IMG/VR virus record: IMGVR_UViG_3300047508_000270
Coordinates: 1 to 21,257 of that record
Direction: 5' to 3' (one strand)
Length of the DNA stretch: 21,257 nucleotides
DNA from: a virus
Position numbers and translations under genes: made by a program. The notes below the pieces were generated by a model that worked only from the letters and a program-made list of their open reading frames with translations, was not told the origin of the DNA and ran no database searches. Positions within the stretch are counted from its first letter, which is position 1. The number at the start of each line of letters is the position of its first letter. Shown here in pieces: positions 950 to 21,179 of the stretch.

Positions 950-3079
950 GTGGCTTCCGATTCCCGCGCCTCGGCGCCAACCAGCGAGATCGGGAGCGCC
1001 ACCGGCTACGGGGGCGCCGGCGGCTTCGCCCAGGCGGTCCCGTGGCAGGCATTCATCCAGACGGGGGAGTACGCCCCTGACCTGAAGTGGCCGCAGTCGA
1101 CCAAGGTCTATGACCGGATGCGCACCGACGCTCAGGTCAAGGGCCTGATGCTCGGCTCCGTGTTGCCGATCCGCCGGTTCCGTTGGCCGCTCGATCCGAG
1201 CAACGCCCGACCTGAGGTGGTCGAAGCGCTGGCCAAGGATCTGAACATGCCGATCAAGGGCGAAGACGAATACCACCCGGGTCGCCGTCGTAACGCCTTC
1301 TCCTTCGGCGATCACCTGGCCGACGCCCTGCTTGGCCTGGCCTACGGCTTCATGTACTTCGAGACCGTCGGTGAGATCGGGGCGGACGGCAAATGGCACC
1401 TGACCAAACTGGCGCCGCGACACCCGCGCACGATCGGGCAGATCTTCGCCGAACCGACCGGGGAGCTGGTGAAGGTCCGCCAACTCTTCGGCATCCAGAA
1501 CGAAGACATCCCGGCCAATCGCCTCGTCACCTACGTCTGGGAACAGGAGGCGGGGAGCTGGGTCGGCACCTCCATGCTGCGCGCCTGCTACCGCTCCTGG
1601 CTCTCCAAGGACGAGCTGATGCGGGTCGACGTGACCAAGCACCAGCGCAACGGGCTCGGGCTGCCCGTGGGCGAGGCACCCCCGGGCGGCACGCAGCCGC
1701 AGATCGACGCGATGCAGCAGATTGCCTCAGAAGCGCGGAGTGGCGACACCGCCGGGGTCGGGATCCCGAACGGCGCCAAGCTCTCTCTGCAGGGCGTCCA
1801 GGGTCAGCTCCCCGACACCGTCGCCTCGATGAACTTCCACAACGAGGAGATGGCGCGCTCCTTCCTGATGATGTTTATGCAGCTCGGGCAGACGAAGACC
1901 GGCTCGCGGGCGCTGGGGTCCGACTTTCTCGACTTCTTCGGCTTCGCCCAAGAGGCGATCGCCGACTGGATCGTCGACGTCTTCACCGAACAGGTCATCG
2001 AGTTCTGGGTTGACCAGAACTACGGCAAAGACGAGCCGGCACCCCAGCTCTCCTACGAACGGGCCGATGGCGAGGATCTCTCGGCGCAGGACCTGGCGCT
2101 ACTGATCCAGACCGGTGCACTGCAGGTCGACGAAACGATCGAGAACCAGATCCGCCGCCGCTACGGCTTCTTGCCGATCGACCCCGCCGACCCGCCGAAA
2201 CCGGCGACCCCATCTTCCGCGCCCGAGCCGACCCCTGCGGTCACCGCGAGGGCACGGGAGCGGCGGCGCGCCACGGTGTCTGCGGCGGCCAGCGACTCTC
2301 TCCCGCTGCCCGATCGCGAGCTGCGCCGCCAGCCCTACTCGCAAGAGGTACAGGCCAAGGTCGACTACGAACTGATGGACGCGCAGATCCAGGGGCAGAT
2401 CGACTCCCTGGTCGCGAAGGTCAAGACTCTCCAGGGCGATCAGATCACCGAACTTGCGGCGGCTATCGAGAGCGCAGACAACGACCTGACGAAGCTGGCG
2501 CAACTCGAAGCCGCCCCTGTATTCAGCGAAGTGCTCGAGGACGCCATGCTCGAAATGGCAGCGCAGGGCGTCGAGCAGGCTGTAGGCGAGGCCGAGCGCC
2601 AGGGCATCACCCCGACGGTGCCGGACCTCGACACGACCGGGCTGACGAACCGCGCCGGCGCCGTCGACACGCTGCTCTCTCGCTCGCTGTCGGAGGCCGC
2701 TGGGCGCAAGGCCCTGAGCCTTACCGCGGAATCCGGCGCGCTCTCCGCAGCCGATGTCGCATCTCAGGTGGGCGAGTACCTCGGTGGCCTCTCCGATGAC
2801 TACCTGAAACAGCAGCTCTCCGGCGCCACGGTGCAGGCCATGAACACCGGCCGCAAGGCGGTCTTCGCCGAGAACCCGCCGAAATACCTCTACGCCTCAG
2901 AGCTGCTCGACGAGAACGCCTGCGAGGAATGCGTGGCGATCGACGGCACCGAATATGACACGCTGGAAGACGCCGAGGCGGACTACCCAACCGGGGGCTA
3001 TGCCGACTGTCTCGGCGGGCCGCGGTGCCGGGGGACGCTGGTGGCGGTGCACACCGACGAGGCAGCGCCGAGCCAGTGA
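950..3079 (+). CDS. Portal protein (DUF935/Mu gp29-like) fused to a MuF-type minor head domain
   Basis: The protein is 709 residues. Residues about 30-420 look like a DUF935-family portal, which forms the ring through which DNA enters and leaves the capsid. Residues about 420-640 are a helical, charged linker. The last 70 residues match the C-terminal module of Mu F / SPP1 gp7 minor head proteins: a CxxC pair (C658, C661), an IDG motif, a GGY motif, then C687 and C693 just before the end, so four cysteines could bind a metal. In Mu these are two separate genes (portal and F); here one reading frame holds both. The start is GTG at 950, touching the terminase stop, with AAGGAG six bases upstream, which supports translational coupling. 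The MuF part is a minor head protein, often ejected or needed for assembly; the exact role here is inferred. Confidence 0.88.
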   Translation: MASDSRASAPTSEIGSATGYGGAGGFAQAVPWQAFIQTGEYAPDLKWPQSTKVYDRMRTDAQVKGLMLGSVLPIRRFRWPLDPSNARPEVVEALAKDLNMPIKGEDEYHPGRRRNAFSFGDHLADALLGLAYGFMYFETVGEIGADGKWHLTKLAPRHPRTIGQIFAEPTGELVKVRQLFGIQNEDIPANRLVTYVWEQEAGSWVGTSMLRACYRSWLSKDELMRVDVTKHQRNGLGLPVGEAPPGGTQPQIDAMQQIASEARSGDTAGVGIPNGAKLSLQGVQGQLPDTVASMNFHNEEMARSFLMMFMQLGQTKTGSRALGSDFLDFFGFAQEAIADWIVDVFTEQVIEFWVDQNYGKDEPAPQLSYERADGEDLSAQDLALLIQTGALQVDETIENQIRRRYGFLPIDPADPPKPATPSSAPEPTPAVTARARERRRATVSAAASDSLPLPDRELRRQPYSQEVQAKVDYELMDAQIQGQIDSLVAKVKTLQGDQITELAAAIESADNDLTKLAQLEAAPVFSEVLEDAMLEMAAQGVEQAVGEAERQGITPTVPDLDTTGLTNRAGAVDTLLSRSLSEAAGRKALSLTAESGALSAADVASQVGEYLGGLSDDYLKQQLSGATVQAMNTGRKAVFAENPPKYLYASELLDENACEECVAIDGTEYDTLEDAEADYPTGGYADCLGGPRCRGTLVAVHTDEAAPSQ

Positions 3080-8409: not shown

Positions 8410-9860
8410 GTCCCCTACCTGGAGTCAGCTACGAAACGCGGGACAGCTCCGGGGTATCGGGGCCGCCGCTTGATACCGCCACGGCGTTCGTCGGTGGGCT
8501 GGCCGAAAGAGGCCCCGTCGACAAACCGCGCTTCTGCACGACGCTCCCGCAGTTCGAAGCCATCTATGGAGGCGAAGTCTCCTATGGCTGGTTGTGGTGG
8601 GCCGCGAAACTCATTCCGCAGGAGGGTGGCGCTGGCTGCTGGTTCCAACGGGTTGTGGGTCCGGCTGCGAAAGCCTCCACGGTCAAACTGACCGATGGCA
8701 GCAAAAACACGCTCCAGGTCGACGCCGTCTCGCCCGGTGCCTGGGGCGACGACATCGACGTGAAAACCGAAGTGGGGGGCGGCAACGTCACCTACACCGT
8801 CGTCTTCAAAGGCGTCAACGTCGAGGTCTCGCCGGCGCTGGCGACCAACGCCGACGCCGTCGCGTGGGCGCTGAACTCCGAATACGTCCGCTTCACGGAT
8901 CTCGGCGGGGCCGACCCGACGGCGCAGACGGGCAACCTCGCCGGTGGCGACGACGATCGCGCCAGCATCACCGACGAACACCGGAAAGCAGGGCAGGCGC
9001 TATTTACCGACGATCTCGGGCCTGGCCAGGAACTCTTTCCAGGCGCCACCACCACGGTGATGCATACGGCGCTCCTTGTACAGTCGCTTGCGAGAGACCG
9101 AGCAGCGGTTCTCGACGGCGCTGACACGCATACGGTGGCGACGCATCTCGCCGAGTGCGCGACCCTTAGGGCTTTGGGCTTCCCGGCTGACGCCGGGTCT
9201 CCCTTCGGGCCTTGGCCGGTGGTGCCTGGGCCGGCGCCGGGCACGACGAAGGCCGTCCCACCTTCCATCATCGAGGCCGCGAAAATGGCCCGCCGGGACT
9301 TGGAGACCTTCGATCCGGTGATCGGCGTCGGCAACCCAAACGAGCCCGCGGCTGGAGTCCACAACAACGCCGGGGTCTCGCGCACTGCGGTCGGCCTCTC
9401 GCAGGAAGCCTGGACCGACACCGAGCGGGAAGCTCTCAACAACGCGGGCTTCAATGTCTTGCGGGTGCTGTACGGCCAGGTCGTCACCTACGGCTACCGG
9501 ACGTTGGCCAACCCGGTCACCCGGCCACTGAACGTGTGGCTGAGCAACCGCCGTCTCGACATGGCAATCCTGGCCAAGGCTAGGGCGATCGGCGAGGAAT
9601 TCAACTTCCGCCAGATCGACGGCCGTGGACGGATGCTGAACGAGTTTGGCGCGGCTCTCGCAGGCCGCGTCCTGATGCCCTACTGGGAAATCGGGGCGCT
9701 CTTCGGAGACACGCCCGAAGACGCATTCGGCACAGAGACCGGCGACCAAGTTAACCCGCCCGAGCAACTCGAAGAAGGGCTGGTCAAAGCTGAGATCGAG
9801 GCCAAACGCAGCCCTCTCGCCGAGCGAGTAAAGCTGATCTACGTGAAGGAGGAACTGTGA
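8406..9860 (+). CDS. Contractile tail sheath protein
   Basis: The protein is 484 residues. It starts MSPLPGVSYE, the usual sheath opening (PGV.. then a variable first domain), with TATAFVGGLAERGP and PQFEAIYGG, typical of sheath subunits. Later segments FDPVIGVGNPNEP, NAGFNVLRVLYGQVVTYGYRTL and NPLNVWLSNRR-like (ARPLNVWL) fall where the conserved domain lies. The C-terminus GLVKAEIEAKRSPLAERVKL resembles the strand that links neighbouring subunits in contractile sheaths. Its presence defines this as a contractile-tailed (myovirus-like) particle. The start GTG 8406 overlaps the previous stop as GTGA, with AGGAGG-like CAGGAGGC (8392-8399) upstream. The stop overlaps the tube start the same way. 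Confidence 0.9.
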   Translation: MSPLPGVSYETRDSSGVSGPPLDTATAFVGGLAERGPVDKPRFCTTLPQFEAIYGGEVSYGWLWWAAKLIPQEGGAGCWFQRVVGPAAKASTVKLTDGSKNTLQVDAVSPGAWGDDIDVKTEVGGGNVTYTVVFKGVNVEVSPALATNADAVAWALNSEYVRFTDLGGADPTAQTGNLAGGDDDRASITDEHRKAGQALFTDDLGPGQELFPGATTTVMHTALLVQSLARDRAAVLDGADTHTVATHLAECATLRALGFPADAGSPFGPWPVVPGPAPGTTKAVPPSIIEAAKMARRDLETFDPVIGVGNPNEPAAGVHNNAGVSRTAVGLSQEAWTDTEREALNNAGFNVLRVLYGQVVTYGYRTLANPVTRPLNVWLSNRRLDMAILAKARAIGEEFNFRQIDGRGRMLNEFGAALAGRVLMPYWEIGALFGDTPEDAFGTETGDQVNPPEQLEEGLVKAEIEAKRSPLAERVKLIYVKEEL

Positions 9861-10291
9861 GCGGCGAGCTTAAGTACCAATGGATCGTTGAAGTCTGGGT
9901 CGAGGGCCTGGGCAACCTCGGGAAGTTCGACCAGTCCACCGGTGGCATGGGCGACTCCGAGGAGAAGAAGTATCGCGAGGGTGGAGAGGTCGCCGAGTCA
10001 GTGCTGGGCGGCGCCAAAATCCGCAGCAACGTGTCGGTCGAACGCCTGTGGCGGACCGAACGTGACGGGCCGATCTTCAAGCCCCTAGACAACGGCCGCG
10101 GCGCTCGCCAGATGATCATCACCAAAACGCCAGCCGATGCGGATCTCAATCCGGTCCTGCCTCCCGGCATGGGGCCGCTGATCTACCGCGGCAAGGTCAA
10201 GGCCGTCACCGGCCCCGACACCGATTCGAACGACTCCAGCGGGGAGACCAAGCTCATCATCGAGCAGTCCACCGCTGGCCCCGTCGGCTAG
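9857..10291 (+). CDS. Tail tube protein
   Basis: The protein is 144 residues, the usual size of a gp19/FII-type tube subunit that makes the inner channel inside the sheath. It is beta-rich: KYQWIVEVWVEGLGNLGKFD, a variable loop (GGMGDSEEKKYREGGE), then VLGGAKIRSNVSVERLWR and IYRGKVKAVTGPDTDS, matching the strand order of tube proteins in contractile systems. The start is GTG 9857, with AAGGAGG (9846-9852) four bases upstream, overlapping the sheath stop as GTGA. A short 29-base gap to the chaperone follows. Confidence 0.85.
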   Translation: MSGELKYQWIVEVWVEGLGNLGKFDQSTGGMGDSEEKKYREGGEVAESVLGGAKIRSNVSVERLWRTERDGPIFKPLDNGRGARQMIITKTPADADLNPVLPPGMGPLIYRGKVKAVTGPDTDSNDSSGETKLIIEQSTAGPVG

Positions 10292-10320: not shown

Positions 10321-10869
10321 ATGGAGGAGAACTCCACGGCTGCCCTTGCCACGGGCGGCGTGATAGATGGTGCCCCGAAACCGACGAGCCTCGGCGAGGA
10401 GCTGGCGGCGACGCGGGAAAAGCTGGCGGACGAGCGCAAGCCCAAGCTCTTCGAGCTGCCCGGGTATGGCCCGAAGCTCCAGGCGAAATACAAGGTCGTC
10501 GACTACGACGAGGTCAATGCCATCGGCGACAAAGTTGGCGAGCAGGTCCGCGCCGAGCAGATCGACGATGCGGTCCTGGCGGGTCTCAGCGACACGTTGG
10601 TCGCCGGGTGTGTCGGTTTCTATACCGAGGTCAACGGGAAGGTCGTTCCCCTCGAGGAGGTCGAGGATCTCGGTGAGGGGCCAATCCTGTGGGGAGACAG
10701 CCGCTTGTGGTCGCTTCTTCGCCTGGAGGCTCAGGAGGGCGAAACCCTGCGAGTGCGTGCCGCAATACGCAAAATCCTCGGCGACGACAAGATGCTCGTC
10801 GTTGAGCACGCCCAGGACGTGACCCGCTGGATGGAGCGCGCCCGTAGGCAGGTAGACACCGATTTCTAG
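10321..10869 (+). CDS. Tail assembly chaperone, short (unshifted) product
   Basis: The protein is 182 residues and begins with a disordered N-terminus (MEENSTAALATGG), followed by EELAATREKL and FELPGYGPKLQAKYKVVDYDE, then helical segments ending ARRQVDTDF. It lies between tube and tape measure, the place of tail assembly chaperones (gpG/gpGT type), which bind the tape measure during tail assembly. ATG 10321 is preceded by AAAGGAG (10307-10313). The TAG stop at 10867-10869 sits at the start of a strong stem-loop, and a coherent open frame continues in the -1 frame. Chaperone identity rests mainly on position and the frameshift layout. Confidence 0.75.
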   Translation: MEENSTAALATGGVIDGAPKPTSLGEELAATREKLADERKPKLFELPGYGPKLQAKYKVVDYDEVNAIGDKVGEQVRAEQIDDAVLAGLSDTLVAGCVGFYTEVNGKVVPLEEVEDLGEGPILWGDSRLWSLLRLEAQEGETLRVRAAIRKILGDDKMLVVEHAQDVTRWMERARRQVDTDF

Positions 10870-11072
10870 AAAGCCTCGCCGGGGATCGCCGCGTTCGCGC
10901 GGCGGCCAAGGCGGGGCTTCTTGGCTTTGATCGGGATGCGTACCTCGCCGAGCGAGACCCCGGCAAGCAGGTGCTGAACGCGGCGCTGATCGACGAGGCC
11001 GATCGCGTCCGCGCCGACTGGAGAGAGGAACTGGCCGTGCGGATCATCTCCGCCCTTGGCCGCTCAATGTGA
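10321..11072 (+). CDS. Tail assembly chaperone, predicted -1 frameshift product (join 10321-10866 and 10866-11072)
   Basis: After DTDF a -1 shift adds 68 residues starting LESLAGDRRVRAAAKAG, then LLGFDRDAYLAERDPG, and ending AVRIISALGRSM. This segment is helical, has normal composition for this genome and no in-frame ATG except its last codon, so it is unlikely to be an independent gene. The -1 frame is open only from 10848, so the shift must occur between there and 10869. The likely event is slippage of tRNA-Phe from TTC (10864-10866) to TTT (10863-10865) with the TAG in the A site. No canonical heptamer (X XXY YYZ) is present. The full product would be 250 residues, like the long form of other tail chaperones. 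The frameshift itself is inferred. Confidence 0.65.
10871..10919 (+). promoter_or_regulatory. Stem-loop likely stimulating frameshifting
   Basis: The inner hairpin has 7 perfect pairs, CGCCGCG (10887-10893) with CGCGGCG (10898-10904), closed by a TTCG loop. The outer stem has 10 pairs, AAGCCTCGCC (10871-10880) with GGCGGGGCTT (10910-10919), all Watson-Crick except one G-U. It starts five bases after the TTC codon at the shift site, a usual distance for a stimulatory structure. A terminator is less likely because no T-run follows and coding continues through it. Confidence 0.7.
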
Positions 11073-11093: not shown

Positions 11094-12761
11094 GTGGCAT
11101 CGTCCCTATCCGAGGAGCTGCTTGCAATCCGGCTGGAGCTCAAAGGGGTTCGCGAAGCAGTTTCCGGTCTGCACTCGGTTGATGATGCGCAGAAGGGCGT
11201 TGCGTCCTCCACGACTCGCACCGGGGTGGCTGCCGAGAAAGCGGAGAAGAAAACGTCTCGGCTCTCCCGAGCGTACGCCTCGCTAGGCAAGACGGCGAAG
11301 TGGGGCCTCGGCTTCCTCGGTGTCGGCGGCGTCTTCGCGCTGAAGTCGGCGATCGACAACACCGAGGAACTGTCAAAGACGACGGTCGGACTGACGCGCA
11401 ACTTTGGGATGCAGACGAATGTCGCCTCGCGCTGGGCCGCTGTTGCGCACGCGCGCGACATCGACTCCAAAGCGCTGGGGATGGCCTTCGGCACGCTGTC
11501 GAGCCGCATGGTCGAAGCGGGGCGCAAAGGCGGCACTGCCTTGACGCCGTTTCACCAGATGGGGCTGACCCAGGAAGAAGTGGCGAAGGGGGCGCACAAC
11601 TTCGAGTGGGGACTGATGCGGGTTGTCAGCGCCCTTGGCGATATGGAGGGTGGCGCGAAGCGCACGACGGCCGCGAAAGCGGCATTCGGTAAAGGCTTCC
11701 AGACGTTGGTGCCGCTGATGTCCGAAGGCACCAAAGGTCTCAAGGAAATGCTGCATTGGTCGGACGAATACGGCGTGACGCTCGACGGCAAGACCAACAG
11801 CGCGATCATGGACATGGTCAACGCTCAGCGCGAGAGCAAAGTCGCCACGCTCGGGCTTCAGATCGCGCTGACCAGGGCTCTTATGCCAGCGATCGAGGGT
11901 GGGCAGCATGAACTTCAGAAGTTCATCGCGACGCTGAACGACCCTGACCTCAGCGCCGACCAAAAGCTCCACCGGATCGAACAGCAGCTCCTCGGTATCG
12001 AGGACACGCTGATCGAAATCGTCTCCGATGCCCTACCGCGGGTGGCAGAACATGGCGGCGAGCTCGGGGTGAAGCTGGCTGGCGCGGTGTGGCACGGGTT
12101 CTGGAAGTCGGATCTGCTTGGGAAGGTGGTCATCGCGGGTTGGATCTTCCGCATGTTCGGCGGCGAGGCCCTGGCTAAGGCAGGGGCTACGAGGGTCGGT
12201 GGGATGATCGGAACCCGAATGGGGCTTGGTGTCGGCGCTGGCCTAATTGGCGCCTACATTGGCTATGAAATCTGGGAAAGCCTGTCAGACAGGACTCAGG
12301 CGGAACTGGCTCTGACCGCTGAAAAGATGGGCATCGATTTCGCCAACTTCTTCGTTCGTAGTTGGAATGCAGCCAACCCGCTTCCATTCGGCATAGGCGA
12401 CAAAGGCGAATTCGAGCCGCGCCAGCATGACCTAACGCCGGCAGAAGCCTTTGGTCCTCCGATTGGCAAAGGCTCGGCACCTGGGGTTGGCGGGGTGATT
12501 GGCAAGGGCAAGACGAAGCGTGAAGTGTATGAAGGACTGTGGGGTCAGCCTCCGCCTCCTGGACCTCCGCCGTGGCCACCGCCAAAGCGCAAGCACCGGC
12601 AGCTCTCAGCCATAGAGACGCCGCGTCTCCCTCGTCTCAACTTTGATTCGGTCAGTGGAGGGGCGCGCGAGACGGTCGTGCACACCCACATTCATCTCGA
12701 TGGCAAAGAGATTGCGGAAAGCACTGCGCGTCATGTCGCCGCAGCCGAAGCACTTGGCTAG
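11094..12761 (+). CDS. Tail tape measure protein
   Basis: The protein is 555 residues and sets tail length and is ejected with the DNA. It has coiled, charged helices (SEELLAIRLELKGVREAV) and hydrophobic segments at about 67-87 (WGLGFLGVGGVFALKSAI), 340-360 and 365-397 (GGMIGTRMGLGVGAGLIGAY). A proline-rich stretch lies at about 485-500. The C-terminus VVHTHIHLDGKEIAESTARH is the common short beta-hairpin plus helix found at the end of many tape measures. Using roughly 0.15 nm per residue, the tail would be near 80 nm. GTG 11094 follows AGGAGG (11081-11086). The stop TAG (12759-12761) shares its CTAG with the stop of the reverse-strand gene beyond. Confidence 0.88.
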   Translation: MASSLSEELLAIRLELKGVREAVSGLHSVDDAQKGVASSTTRTGVAAEKAEKKTSRLSRAYASLGKTAKWGLGFLGVGGVFALKSAIDNTEELSKTTVGLTRNFGMQTNVASRWAAVAHARDIDSKALGMAFGTLSSRMVEAGRKGGTALTPFHQMGLTQEEVAKGAHNFEWGLMRVVSALGDMEGGAKRTTAAKAAFGKGFQTLVPLMSEGTKGLKEMLHWSDEYGVTLDGKTNSAIMDMVNAQRESKVATLGLQIALTRALMPAIEGGQHELQKFIATLNDPDLSADQKLHRIEQQLLGIEDTLIEIVSDALPRVAEHGGELGVKLAGAVWHGFWKSDLLGKVVIAGWIFRMFGGEALAKAGATRVGGMIGTRMGLGVGAGLIGAYIGYEIWESLSDRTQAELALTAEKMGIDFANFFVRSWNAANPLPFGIGDKGEFEPRQHDLTPAEAFGPPIGKGSAPGVGGVIGKGKTKREVYEGLWGQPPPPGPPPWPPPKRKHRQLSAIETPRLPRLNFDSVSGGARETVVHTHIHLDGKEIAESTARHVAAAEALG

Positions 12762-13243
12762 GTCGAGGTCTCGCTGTCGAGTTGCTCCCAAGGATTGACT
12801 CGCGGCTCAGCGTTCGCCTCCGAGCGCCTGAATAGGTAATACCCCATCGTCCTGCCCTTCACGGCAATATTTTGGCCTGACGACATAAATTTGTCTCGGC
12901 TCTGAGAGCCCTCCTCGACGAACACGAAAGAGCCGGTAATCAGCTCCCAGCCCTCCCGGCACACAGAGTTGAGGATCGCGGTCGGATCGTTGGTCTTCTT
13001 CGTGTTCGTGCTGCCGATCATGGCAACGATGACCGCGCCTTGGCTCATTACGTCGAAGCAGCACTGGAAGACATGGTCGCCTTCGTCATAGGCTGCGCGC
13101 GCACGGCCGGCTGGGGTATCGAAGAACGCGCGTTTCGCACTCTCAATCGCAGCCAAGCGGCGCTGGTCTGCCGCACGACGCTGCTGCTCTTCCTTCGCAG
13201 CTTGCAACGCCGCCTTTTCCTCGGGTGACTTCCTGAGCGCCAT
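12758..13243 (-). CDS. Reverse-strand accessory protein (161 aa), moron-like
   Basis: This is a well-formed gene on the strand opposite the operon, between tape measure and baseplate genes. Residues 1 to about 40 form a charged coiled segment (SPEEKAALQAAKEEQQRRAAD). Residues about 45-145 form a compact domain with HVFQCCFDVMSQGAVIVAMIGSTNTK and CREGWELITGSFVFVEEGSQ, then SRDKFMSSGQNIAVKG and GYYLFRR. This resembles small proteins I recall in actinobacterial chromosomes, and in layout DUF4177-like proteins (a strand, then 'EGWELI', then a closing strand). The sequence has AT-rich patches unlike its neighbours (for example 12866-12892). Its TAG stop (CTA at 12758-12760) overlaps the tape measure stop. 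Function unknown; an infection-altering moron is possible. Confidence 0.85.
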   Translation of the reverse strand: MALRKSPEEKAALQAAKEEQQRRAADQRRLAAIESAKRAFFDTPAGRARAAYDEGDHVFQCCFDVMSQGAVIVAMIGSTNTKKTNDPTAILNSVCREGWELITGSFVFVEEGSQSRDKFMSSGQNIAVKGRTMGYYLFRRSEANAEPRVNPWEQLDSETST

Positions 13244-16516: not shown

Positions 16517-17899
16517 GTGTCCAAGTTCGCTGAGCTGTTCCCCAACGTCGATCCGACGGCAGTCAAAGCCGAAATGGAGGAAGCGATCCGGGCCAACGTC
16601 CCGGGCTGGGAACCCAAGCCCGGCAACCTCGACACCTGGATCAATGAAGCTAAATCACGCCTGTGGGCAATTCTGATTCAGCAGGCGTCGACGATGGGAG
16701 CCGCCGCCTTCGGGACCTTTGGGCGGACGATCTCCAAAGTGCCACCGATCTTGGCCGCACCGGCCACGGTGACCAGCACTTGGACGGCGATCAACGAAGA
16801 CGGCCACACGATCAAAGACGGGACCGAAGTAAAGATCCCCGTTCCTGGCGGTGAGCCGGCTGGCTTCATCGTCGTCGGGGATGTGGCGATCACGCCTGGA
16901 GACACCTCCACTGCCGCCGGCGAGGTGCTGTTGCAGGCCATCGAACCCGGGACGGCGAGCAACGAACTGGGCGGTGAAGCCACGCCGATCAGCGCCGTCG
17001 TCTTCGTCGACACGATCACGCTTGTCGGTGAAACCTCTGGGGGCGTAGACGAAGAGGACGAAGACGCCTACCTCGACCGCCTGACCGAAAAGCTCCAGAC
17101 TCTCGCGCTCTCGCTGATCCTGCCGCCGGACTTCGAGATCGACGCCCGTGACACCCCCGGGGTCGCTCTCGCGCTCTGCTTTCCCGCCTACAACGCCGAA
17201 GCAGAAGAAGAGGAAGCGCTCGCGATGACGGTGGTCCCGAGAGACGCAGCAGGCGCTTCTTGCAGCGCCCCGGTCAAAGCCGACTTGAAGGGCGCCCAGG
17301 AAGCGAAGCTGATCAGCGGGGTCGACTATTTCCTTGCCGATCCCACGCACTCCAAGGTGGACGCCTTCTCATCGATCGTCGTTGCCACCGGCTTCGACCC
17401 CGTCGTGGTGGTGGCTGCGGCGGAGGCGCGGAAGGCTGCCTATCTGGATTCAGCGAACTGGGGGGTGTCCAGCGCGAACCCAAAGGTCTGGGAAAACCGG
17501 ACGAAGGTCTACTTCAACGAGCTGATCTCCGAGATCGATCGTGTGCAGGGAGTCGATCGCGTCGTCTCGCTGCTGCTCGGTGGGGGCACCGGCAAAGCCT
17601 TCACGGTCGCGGCATCGACGGACAAACTCACCTCAGCCGCCCATGGCTTCGCCAACGGCGACGCGGTAGTGCTGCGCACGGGTCTGGCACCCGGCGCCCC
17701 GCTGATCGCCGGCACCGTCTACTACGTCCGCGATGTCGAAGCGAACGCCTTCAAGCTCGCCGCCGGGGTCGGGGGAGCAGCGATCAACGTAACTGCTGAC
17801 GGCTCCGGGACTGCGGTGAAACTAGGGATCACGGACCTGACGCTGCCTGGCCTCGCCCCTGTATCGGAACCGGGCGAGATTGGGGTGACGGTCGAATGA
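16517..17899 (+). CDS. Baseplate J-like wedge protein with inserted C-terminal module
   Basis: The protein is 460 residues. Residues about 30-350 are J-like (P2 gpJ/T4 gp6-like): TASTMGAAAFGTFGRTISK, PATVTSTWTAINEDGHTI, then ATPISAVVFVDTITLVGET, then a YLDRLTEKLQTLALSLIL helix, and NRTKVYFNELISEIDRVQ. J proteins form the ring that holds the tail fibers. At about 358-435 an extra beta module (FTVAASTDKLTSAAHGFANGD, then YYVRDVEANAFKLAAGVG, then INVTADGSGTAV) interrupts the usual end, which resumes as TDLTLPGLAPVSEPGEIGV at 439-458. The same module type occurs in some phage fibers. GTG 16517 touches the previous TAG, with GGAGG five bases upstream. Confidence 0.85.
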   Translation: MSKFAELFPNVDPTAVKAEMEEAIRANVPGWEPKPGNLDTWINEAKSRLWAILIQQASTMGAAAFGTFGRTISKVPPILAAPATVTSTWTAINEDGHTIKDGTEVKIPVPGGEPAGFIVVGDVAITPGDTSTAAGEVLLQAIEPGTASNELGGEATPISAVVFVDTITLVGETSGGVDEEDEDAYLDRLTEKLQTLALSLILPPDFEIDARDTPGVALALCFPAYNAEAEEEEALAMTVVPRDAAGASCSAPVKADLKGAQEAKLISGVDYFLADPTHSKVDAFSSIVVATGFDPVVVVAAAEARKAAYLDSANWGVSSANPKVWENRTKVYFNELISEIDRVQGVDRVVSLLLGGGTGKAFTVAASTDKLTSAAHGFANGDAVVLRTGLAPGAPLIAGTVYYVRDVEANAFKLAAGVGGAAINVTADGSGTAVKLGITDLTLPGLAPVSEPGEIGVTVE

Positions 17900-20517
17900 G
17901 CCGCTTCCCCGTAGACGAAATCTTCTGGCGGCGAACGGAGGACTCGGCAGTCGTTTACTTTGGGCGCCACTACTCCGTCGAAATCGTCGAGGCGGGTACC
18001 GAAGACCTTTTGACTCTCTGGTCCGCCGAGGAAGGCGGCGACGAAGTCGTTCAACCGCTGGTCACCGACGACGACGGCCGAGCACTGGGCAAAGACGGCG
18101 TTCGGCCATGGTCCGATACTGCGGACTACGACGTGCTCGTTAATGGGGAGCGGTACCCGAAACGTGCCCCTGCCGGTGGCGGAGGTGGCGGCGCGGTCGA
18201 TTCAGTGGCTGGGAAAACCGGCGACGTCACTCTCGAGCCCGGTGACATCGAGGGGCTGGAGGACCGCCTTCCATTCGCCAACGTCAAGGCCTTTGGTGCA
18301 AAAGGCGACGACGATGACGACACGGAGGCGATCAAAGCGGCGATCGCCAGCTTTGGCGCAGCAGGCAACTCGTTCGGCGACACCGGAAATGCACAGGAGG
18401 CGGGAGTCCTCTACTTCCCGCCCGGTGTCTTCGTCACCAGTGAGACGCTAAAGATCTTCCCCGGCCTCGTCATTCTCGGCGCCGGCGCCTCGGCCACCCA
18501 GCTCAAGCTCGCCGACGGCGCTGACTGCGACCTGCTCCAGACCGAGGGCTTCGACGAACTGAGCGGGACCGAATCGGAGGAAGGCCCCTTCAAGTTCGCG
18601 ATCCGCGACATCTGGCTCGACGGCGGTGAAGGAAGCACCGAAGGCCGCGGGGTGGCGATCTATGGCCGCTACTACCTGATCGACAGCGTGCAGATCAGCG
18701 GCTTCCCGGGGGCCGGTCTGTGGTCGAAGTGGGCGCCCAGTGGGGACCAGATGGAGGCCTCGGTCCGCAACGTGAAGATCATGGGCTGCGGCAGCCCGAC
18801 CGAGCCAGCTCTTGACTGGCGAGGCCCGCACGACTCCAACTTCCAAGACGTCCAGGTCATCCGCCCCAACGGCATCGGCATCAGGACGAGCGAAGGGTCT
18901 GCAGCGGGAGCCTCGTTCGTCAACTGCCATGTCTGGGGCGAAACCGAAAACTACAAAATCGGCTGGCAACTCGACCAGAACGCTTACCTGATCAACTGCC
19001 AGGGCGAGGGGGCACTGGAGACGCAGCTCTGGATCAAACAGGGCGAGTGCATCGTCATCGGCGGGCACTACTTCGGCTTCGGAGAGGTCGGCGAAGAACT
19101 CGACGAATCCACCGCGATCCGCATCGGGGAAGAAGGCGAACACTTCCCCGAAGGCCTGCGGATCGCAACGCGGGCGTCGGGCTCGAAAGTCTGCGTCGAC
19201 TTCGACCAGGACTCCGGCAAGAGTGAGATCTCGGTCCTCTGTGAGCCGCGCGAAGGCGGCGTGGTCAGCACCGGCACCCCGGCCACCTCTAGCCACACCA
19301 CGCTGATCAGCGATTCCCCGGCCACCTCCATGTACCAGGCGCCGAAAGTCAACAGGACCATCGCCTCGGCCACCTCGATCGAGATCCCGCCCGGCGTGGT
19401 CTTTGTCCGGATCTCCGGGTCGGCAGACATCGAGGAAATCGAAGCCAACGCCGATGGGCAGATCCTCATCCTGAAATTCGAGTCGACGGCGAAAGCGGTG
19501 GACGGCGGGAACCTGCACCTCAACGGCGACTTTGAAGGCGAAGACGCGGTGCTGATGCTGGTATGCGACGGGGCGGACTGGTTTGAGATCGGCAGGGAAG
19601 GTGGCGCCGCTGAACTCGGCTACACCGCCGAGGATGTCGCCAAGAAGGTCCAGTCACTCAGCGGGGAAAGCGAAGACGAGTATCCGAGCGAGAAGGCCGT
19701 GCAGCTCGCTCTCGCCACGAAGCAGCCACTTGACTCGGATCTCACGGCTATCGCAGCTTTGGCGACGACGGCCTTCGGGCGGGAATTGCTCACTCTGGCC
19801 AACGCGGCAGCGGGTCGTACCGCTTTTGGCCTCGGCACCGCGGCGACCCAGGCAAGCACTGCGTTCGACGCCGCAGGTGCCGCCGCTGCGGCTCAGGCAG
19901 CATCTCAGCCCCTCGACAGCGACCTGACTGCTATCGCTGCCCTCGCCACGACCGCCTTTGGTCGCGAACTTCTGACGCTTGCCAACGCCGCCGCGGGGCG
20001 GGCTGCGCTCTCGGCGGCATCGATCGCCGAAGTAGAAGCCGCGATCCAGAAATCCCTGGTCGACGCCAAGGGAGATCTGCTGGTCGGCACCGCCGACAAC
20101 ACGGTCGCGCGCAAGGCAGCGGGTTCCAACGGAAAGGTGCTGGGGGCGGCGTCGGGGGAATCCGATGGACTGAAGTGGCTCGACAACAACCGCATCATCG
20201 AGTACCCGATCGTCATCGTCCCCACCGTGACCACTCTGGCCGGCTTCTTCATACGCGCCGCGGCGGGGGAGACCCTGAAATTGATCGGGGTTCGCCACAA
20301 GCTCGCGAGCGGGACCTGCAAATGGAAGATCAAACGGACGACTTCTGCCGGGTCCAGCTCAGAACCACTCAAAGAAAAAGAATCGAAATCTGAAGCCCAG
20401 GAAACGACCTCCGAACAGGAACTCGCCGACAAAGACCTGATCGAGTTCATCTGCGAATCGGTCAGCTCTCCCGGCCTCGGCTACTTCACCGTCCTGATCG
20501 AAAAGACGAGGTCCTGA
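17896..20517 (+). CDS. Tail fiber / tailspike with pectate-lyase-like beta-helix
   Basis: The protein is 873 residues. Residues 1 to about 92 are an N-terminal attachment domain (SRFPVDEIFWRR). A poly-glycine linker lies at about 94-99, then a VDSVAGKTGDVTLEPGDIEG adaptor at about 100-125. Residues about 129-470 look like a Pectate_lyase_3 beta-helix (NVKAFGAKGDDDDDTEAIKA, then VLYFPPGVFVTSETL). Residues about 479-568 form a beta domain ending DGADWFEIGR. Residues 610-641 and 671-702 are two copies of a 32-residue repeat. The end (about 768-873) contains YPIVIVPTVTTLAGFFIRAA and may be a binding tip. It likely recognises or digests host surface glycan. ATG 17896 overlaps the J stop as ATGA. 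Confidence 0.85.
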   Translation: MSRFPVDEIFWRRTEDSAVVYFGRHYSVEIVEAGTEDLLTLWSAEEGGDEVVQPLVTDDDGRALGKDGVRPWSDTADYDVLVNGERYPKRAPAGGGGGGAVDSVAGKTGDVTLEPGDIEGLEDRLPFANVKAFGAKGDDDDDTEAIKAAIASFGAAGNSFGDTGNAQEAGVLYFPPGVFVTSETLKIFPGLVILGAGASATQLKLADGADCDLLQTEGFDELSGTESEEGPFKFAIRDIWLDGGEGSTEGRGVAIYGRYYLIDSVQISGFPGAGLWSKWAPSGDQMEASVRNVKIMGCGSPTEPALDWRGPHDSNFQDVQVIRPNGIGIRTSEGSAAGASFVNCHVWGETENYKIGWQLDQNAYLINCQGEGALETQLWIKQGECIVIGGHYFGFGEVGEELDESTAIRIGEEGEHFPEGLRIATRASGSKVCVDFDQDSGKSEISVLCEPREGGVVSTGTPATSSHTTLISDSPATSMYQAPKVNRTIASATSIEIPPGVVFVRISGSADIEEIEANADGQILILKFESTAKAVDGGNLHLNGDFEGEDAVLMLVCDGADWFEIGREGGAAELGYTAEDVAKKVQSLSGESEDEYPSEKAVQLALATKQPLDSDLTAIAALATTAFGRELLTLANAAAGRTAFGLGTAATQASTAFDAAGAAAAAQAASQPLDSDLTAIAALATTAFGRELLTLANAAAGRAALSAASIAEVEAAIQKSLVDAKGDLLVGTADNTVARKAAGSNGKVLGAASGESDGLKWLDNNRIIEYPIVIVPTVTTLAGFFIRAAAGETLKLIGVRHKLASGTCKWKIKRTTSAGSSSEPLKEKESKSEAQETTSEQELADKDLIEFICESVSSPGLGYFTVLIEKTRS
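19723..19818 (+). repeat. Fiber protein repeat, copy 1 (residues 610-641)
   Basis: This 32-codon unit encodes QPLDSDLTAIAALATTAFGR... and is identical in protein to copy 2, but 26 of 96 bases differ, all silently. Confidence 0.95.
19906..20001 (+). repeat. Fiber protein repeat, copy 2 (residues 671-702)
   Basis: This is the second 32-codon unit, 61 codons after copy 1, identical in protein but different at 22 of 32 codons. Copies of this motif are common in phage fibers. Confidence 0.95.
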
Positions 20518-21179
20518 TGTTCTTCGAACGGGTCGTCAAGGACAACAACCCGAAAGGGCTGTGGTTGCTCAGTGAGACCGCTGGCGCGACCGCGAGCGAC
20601 AGCTCCGGCAACGCGCAGAACGGGTCGATCAAAAACGGACCCACGCTCGGGGTGGCCGGCCCAATCCCGGAGTTCGGCGCCATCACCCTCAATGGGACGA
20701 ACCAATGGATCAGCGTGCCCGACTCAGCGACTGTCGACCTGGGCGATGTGTTCACCTATGCGGCCTGGTTCAAGCGCTCGGCCACCGGCGGTACCGACTG
20801 CCTTCTCGACAAGGGGCCGAACGCCGCGATCCTGCGCTTCGATGGGGAAGACCGGCTCCTCTTCCGCCGCAACAGTGTTGCTGATATCTGCAAGTCGACG
20901 ACGAAAATCGTCGACTTCAACTGGCACCACGTCGTCGCAACCAAGAACGGCGCCACGGTCAAGCTCTACCTCGATGGGGTCGACGTCACCGGGTCGGTGA
21001 CCAACTCGACCTGCACGAACACCGCGGTCGTCCTCTCGATCGGTGCCTCCGAAGCCGGGGCGGAAGACTTCTTTCGAGGCTCGCTGGCCGGCGTCGCGGT
21101 CTTCGCGACGGCGATCGCCGAAGCTCGCGTCAAGGCCCACTTCGACGCTGGCACTCGCTTGCTGGCGATGGTGGTTTGA
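20517..21179 (+). CDS. LamG/concanavalin-like virion surface protein
   Basis: The protein is 220 residues. From about 12 onward it follows the LamG-like jelly-roll pattern: PKGLWLLSETAGATASDSSG, then GAITLNGTNQWISVPDS, then FTYAAWFKRS, FNWHHVVATKNGATVKLYLDG, and FRGSLAGVAVFATAIAEARV. Such domains bind carbohydrate. It sits next to the fiber gene, so it is probably a second host-surface binding or fiber tip protein. Its ATG overlaps the fiber stop by one base (TGATG). Only four cysteine or fewer residues are present, with no signal peptide. Confidence 0.8.
   Translation: MFFERVVKDNNPKGLWLLSETAGATASDSSGNAQNGSIKNGPTLGVAGPIPEFGAITLNGTNQWISVPDSATVDLGDVFTYAAWFKRSATGGTDCLLDKGPNAAILRFDGEDRLLFRRNSVADICKSTTKIVDFNWHHVVATKNGATVKLYLDGVDVTGSVTNSTCTNTAVVLSIGASEAGAEDFFRGSLAGVAVFATAIAEARVKAHFDAGTRLLAMVV

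Follow-up and report, generated by a model that had tools for sequence, protein, structure and literature searches.

Probable programmed −1 ribosomal frameshifting at U_UU.C in the tail assembly chaperone gene of a contractile-tailed actinobacteriophage

The chaperone gene and its surroundings

The window, i.e. the whole 21,257-nucleotide stretch of DNA analysed here, comprises positions 1 to 21,257 of IMG/VR record IMGVR_UViG_3300047508_000270, an uncultured bacterial virus. It carries a contractile-tail module with a Mu-like portal, protease, sheath, tube, chaperone, tape measure, LysM protein, and baseplate J. The portal ORF (950-3079) is apparently a fusion, since its C-terminal stretch matches the head maturation family phrog_595. 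On the minus strand within the tail operon, in the tape measure/LysM protein interval, lies a 161-aa ORF (12758-13243) without a Pfam match. A tail-fibre-like protein possessing a pectate-lyase fold domain (17896-20517) is followed by a laminin-G-like lectin protein (20517-21179), and together these likely represent the receptor-binding region. An Rfam scan of the window matched no family. The features relevant to the chaperone locus are:

9857-10291, + strand: tail tube protein (phrog_5102, E 1e-11), the presumed partner of the extension
10321-10869, + strand: short tail assembly chaperone (G-like), 182 aa, assigned by position, profile, and AlphaFold/Foldseek
10844-10853, + strand: Shine-Dalgarno-like stretch GTAGGCAGGT, a possible upstream stimulator, from its anti-SD duplex
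10863-10866, + strand: putative slip site T_TTC (U_UU.C), Phe TTC (10864-10866) to TTT (10863-10865)
10866-11072, + strand: −1 frame extension (T-like domain), 68 aa plus stop, from a profile match and dN/dS
10867-10869, + strand: 0-frame stop TAG, identical in relatives L012, L013, and L118 (there after TTT)
10868-10921, + strand: two-part stem-loop, the presumed downstream stimulator, from the MFE fold and kept in three sequences
11094-12761, + strand: tape measure protein (phrog_9483 and phrog_2854, tail length tape measure), the presumed chaperone client

The chaperone gene is thus found between the tube and tape measure genes, as is characteristic of G/GT, and its 3′-end reads ACC GAT TTC TAG. 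An HMM constructed from 29 relatives matches window positions 10321-10866 (E 2e-23), and some members of this profile are phrog_5088 tail assembly chaperones. The window protein itself gave nothing useful and no direct match against Pfam, PHROG, or PDB profiles, and a tblastn search against named phages found none. For the AlphaFold model of the 182-aa short form (pLDDT 81), Foldseek returned a Rhodococcus phage tail assembly chaperone as the best named viral match (prob 1.00, E 5.4e-3), and the HK97 chaperone as a weak top match in the PDB (E 0.67). As supportive evidence only, the predicted fold agrees with the identification of this protein as a tail assembly chaperone.

The −1 extension and the signals around the stop codon

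Relatives were collected via sheath alignment, which furnished about 100 contigs. The nearest to the window are L012 (the same as L001) and L013 (the same as L005), with sheath identities of 76% and 65%, respectively. Both retain TTC-TAG, and only one site differs in the 24 bases preceding TAG.

The original prediction placed a −1 frameshift at the end of the chaperone gene, and its coordinates are all correct: the −1 frame stays open from 10848 until a stop whose last base is 11072, specifying 68 residues past the Phe codon, such that the predicted fusion would consist of 250 residues (182+68). This C-terminal extension overlaps the end of G and, as also claimed, has no usable start; the earliest ATG, GTG, or TTG in the frame is GTG 10971, located beyond the midpoint of the conserved domain, and no independent start for the −1 ORF was found. 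An extension HMM built from 32 more distant relatives, with the window, L012, and L013 left out, selects window positions 10848-11069 with an E value of 1.4e-10, the next best of 462 six-frame pieces scoring 0.72. The extension is under purifying selection in the −1 frame (dN/dS ~0.2). In a comparison of three relatives, variable sites 3′ of 10869 fall mainly at −1-frame third positions (14/22, P = 0.0035), and those 5′ of it mainly at 0-frame third positions. This homology and the switch in coding frame support the original prediction, and judged from the sequences the −1 frameshift arrangement in the window is real and under selection. The predicted fusion junction peptide would be ...QVDTDFLESLAGDR...

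No X_XXY_YYZ heptamer exists in 10848-10869, where only C_GAU_UUC is found, and TTC is the sole re-pairable codon in the 19-nt overlap; on both points the earlier reading, which proposed that Phe-tRNA slips from TTC to TTT, is borne out. In-register T_TTY is uncommon, occurring at 8 of the 5498 codons of the window, which corresponds to an expectation of 0.009 per six-codon overlap. The tetranucleotide U_UU.C at 10863-10866 fits the Z_ZZ.N class, in which the ZZN tRNA re-pairs to ZZZ, and, again in keeping with that class, structure follows 4-6 nt past the motif. Poor re-pairing of the P-site codon (GAU to CGA) points to the slip of a single tRNA.

The downstream structure is a strong two-part stem-loop, as originally described, although its inner stem has eight pairs by MFE rather than seven. 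The outer stem comprises 10868-10871/10918-10921 and 10873-10880/10910-10917, and the inner stem 10883-10884/10906-10907 and 10886-10893/10898-10905 around UUCG. With a dG of −40.1 kcal/mol (z −4 to −5.5), it ranks first in stability among the 7066 sixty-nt windows of the record. The distance from TTC to the core stem is 6 nt, or 4 nt with the A-U/G-U extension included. All 22 of 22 pairs are retained in the window, L012, and L013; four vary, each through a one-sided G-U change, and no double (compensatory) changes occur in the three sequences. The upstream stretch GTAGGCAGGT, conserved in L012 and L013, forms an anti-SD duplex of about −7 to −8 kcal/mol, placing it in about the top 3-4% of 10-mers. 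It is not exceptional over the whole upstream interval (0.138), and as a candidate clear signal in the window it proved only moderate on testing.

Slip sites and stimulators among the relatives

Phages Altadena, Cantare, Schomber, and KBurrousTX possess the same gene order as the window, and wherever the chaperone gene is complete and correctly called it is accompanied by a −1 frame continuation of 38-74 aa. Three loci were not usable as collected, L101 being cut by the contig end and L057 and the first call of L107 representing the wrong ORF; L019 was left out as ambiguous. Three distant actinomycete loci, the only ones to emerge from a genome scan, were left out of the comparison. In certain GC-rich loci chance leaves the +1 frame open as well. 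The chaperone CDS of Schomber is annotated as joined; the frameshift is unannotated in Altadena, Cantare, and KBurrousTX, where the 3′ part of the −1 chaperone extension appears as the "hypothetical proteins" Altadena gp17 (L008 8656-8745), Cantare gp23 (L009 8649-8756), and KBurrousTX gp21 (L011 10370-10513).

The slip motifs are diverse. GGGGGAA is present in most close neighbours and is missing from the window lineage; GGGAAAC is found in L095 and L097, CCCTTCC in L024 and L026, CCCTTTR in Cantare, Schomber, and L038, and C_CCU in Altadena, KBurrousTX, and many others. C_CCU_ACG, situated 4-9 codons 5′ of the chaperone stop in approximately 30 contigs (L028-L091), is a possible second tetramer-type site. 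U_UU.Y is shared by the window and five relatives: L012 and L013 (TTC TAG, as in the window), L118 (TTT TAG), L092, and L094. The −1 frame of L118 opens only 10 nt ahead of the stop, so that TTT is the only fit for a slip there. In L092 the sequence is GAT TTC TCG AAG AGC TGA and in L094 GAT TTC TCC TAG, with the sense codons TCG and TCC where the window has TAG. Comparison of the −1 frame translations, F-L-E-E-L in L092 and F-L-E-S-L in the window, shows that the window TAG corresponds to a CTC-to-CTA change, which is synonymous (Leu-Leu) in the −1 frame.

GAT precedes the slip codon in all six U_UU.Y members, which fall into two groups of the sheath tree, window/L012/L013 and L118/L092/L094, the latter grouping together at 97%. 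A single origin of all six is neither supported nor rejected (p-AU 0.448). The hairpin is absent at L092, L094, and L118 (z about 0), and its role consequently rests on three sequences that lack compensatory changes. These hairpin-less members have strong Shine-Dalgarno-like stretches 6-10 nt upstream (top 1-2%); the window triad has a weaker stretch and a strong hairpin. This pattern, drawn from few sequences, suggests that the two elements substitute for each other.

Interpretation and comparison with known systems

We consider programmed −1 ribosomal frameshifting at U_UU.C in the tail chaperone gene of this contractile-tailed actinobacteriophage to be the probable explanation (about 85%). 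Most ribosomes would stop at TAG 10867-10869 and release the 182-aa chaperone, and a minority would shift at U_UU.C, the tRNA-Phe re-pairing from UUC to UUU, and read on through L-E-S-L... to yield the 250-aa chaperone-extension fusion. The slip would most likely take place while UUC occupies or departs from the A site and the stop has yet to enter it; the TTC-to-stem spacing, resembling the 5 nt between U_UU.C and the IS3 pseudoknot (PMC4066793), fits slippage with TTC in the A site. The hairpin and the upstream Shine-Dalgarno-like stretch presumably cause the ribosome to stall and so make the shift more frequent, an effect to which the adjacent stop may add. By analogy with lambda G/GT (PMC5009743), the short and long forms, kept in a fixed ratio, would deliver tube protein to the tape measure: the short form would coat the tape measure, and the extension would recruit the tube protein.

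The original prediction had made the slip dependent on the stop, the P-site Phe-tRNA slipping only on account of an unread UAG in the A site. The slip codon is indeed directly followed by TAG in the window, L012, L013, and L118, stops are known to help +1 shifts such as that of prfB, and a stop 3 nt past the G_GAU_UUU site has a strong effect on −1 shifting in pea enation mosaic virus (PMC5009743). Yet a stop in the A site appears not to be required, because L092 and L094 carry a sense codon after the same GAT TTC and the window TAG is a synonymous change in the −1 frame. Were TAG the A-site codon, only 1-3 nt would moreover lie between it and the hairpin, and +1 shifts depend more on a slow A site than −1 shifts do (reviewed in PMC5009743). 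The stop-dependent version is accordingly judged unlikely, and we rate it as improbable that the window lineage and L118 possess a natural −1 shifty stop, with UAG belonging to the signal and release-factor-1 activity setting the ratio of chaperone forms. The stop may modulate shift efficiency in the window triad and L118, which carry TAG. Overall, the site is better read as a known U_UU.C tetramer.

Two other explanations were considered. Synthesis of the −1 segment as a separate small protein, through reinitiation or coupling, could draw on the Shine-Dalgarno-like stretch shortly upstream and on the stop near the start of the extension; the lack of any start codon ahead of GTG 10971 makes it very improbable. 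That one gene has been split by a sequencing or assembly indel is conceivable for single metagenomic records, but three contigs, each from a different metagenome, are in exact agreement, and the −1 arrangement recurs with other slip motifs in dozens of relatives; independent contigs thereby rule out an assembly error, and the chance of an indel of either kind is negligible.

With frameshifting at U_UU.C as the preferred reading, this clade would reach a homologous extension by way of four or more types of slip site (U_UU.Y, GGGGGAA, C_CCU, and canonical heptamers), and its stimulator apparently moves between the upstream Shine-Dalgarno-like stretch and the downstream hairpin. Tail-chaperone frameshift sites are usually sought by heptamer; the window clade would add a conserved natural tetramer case outside IS elements, and could serve as a test set for the requirements of bacterial −1 sites, including whether a neighbouring stop codon matters.

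Frameshifting of the G/GT tail assembly chaperone is established in lambda and other long-tailed phages (reviewed in PMC5009743). The window resembles the lambda-type system in the location of the gene between tube and tape measure, a −1 extension of about 68 aa, and the prediction of short and long forms; it differs in its slip site, a tetramer where lambda has a heptamer. It appears to be an uncommon slip motif on a known tail-chaperone frameshift, and no report of a TTTC tail-chaperone site was found in the literature searched, largely non-subscription papers. Chaperones of SEA-PHAGES with GGGGGAA "fivetwo" or C_CCU sites (PRFect, PMC10885494) share gene order and a homologous extension with the window and are distinguished by the slip motif.

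The motif itself is better known from IS1/IS3-family elements, which use U_UU.[U,C] (PMC4066793). In an E. coli ranking, U_UU.C is second of the 16 Z_ZZ.N tetramers (Sharma et al. 2014, PMC4066793). By themselves, however, tetramers are weak sites, the six most efficient giving 0.26-5.6% in E. coli when combined with a pseudoknot (same study). The window shares with these elements the U_UU.C motif, the lack of a slippery P-site codon, and a similarly spaced downstream structure, whereas it has a phage tail gene, a simple two-part hairpin rather than a pseudoknot, and an adjacent stop. The G_GAU_UUU_UGG_UAG of pea enation mosaic virus (PMC5009743), an unrelated eukaryotic virus, likewise combines GAU_UUY with a nearby stop. 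L118 has G_GAU_UUU_UAG; the window has C_GAU_UUC, and its P-site re-pairing is consequently poor.
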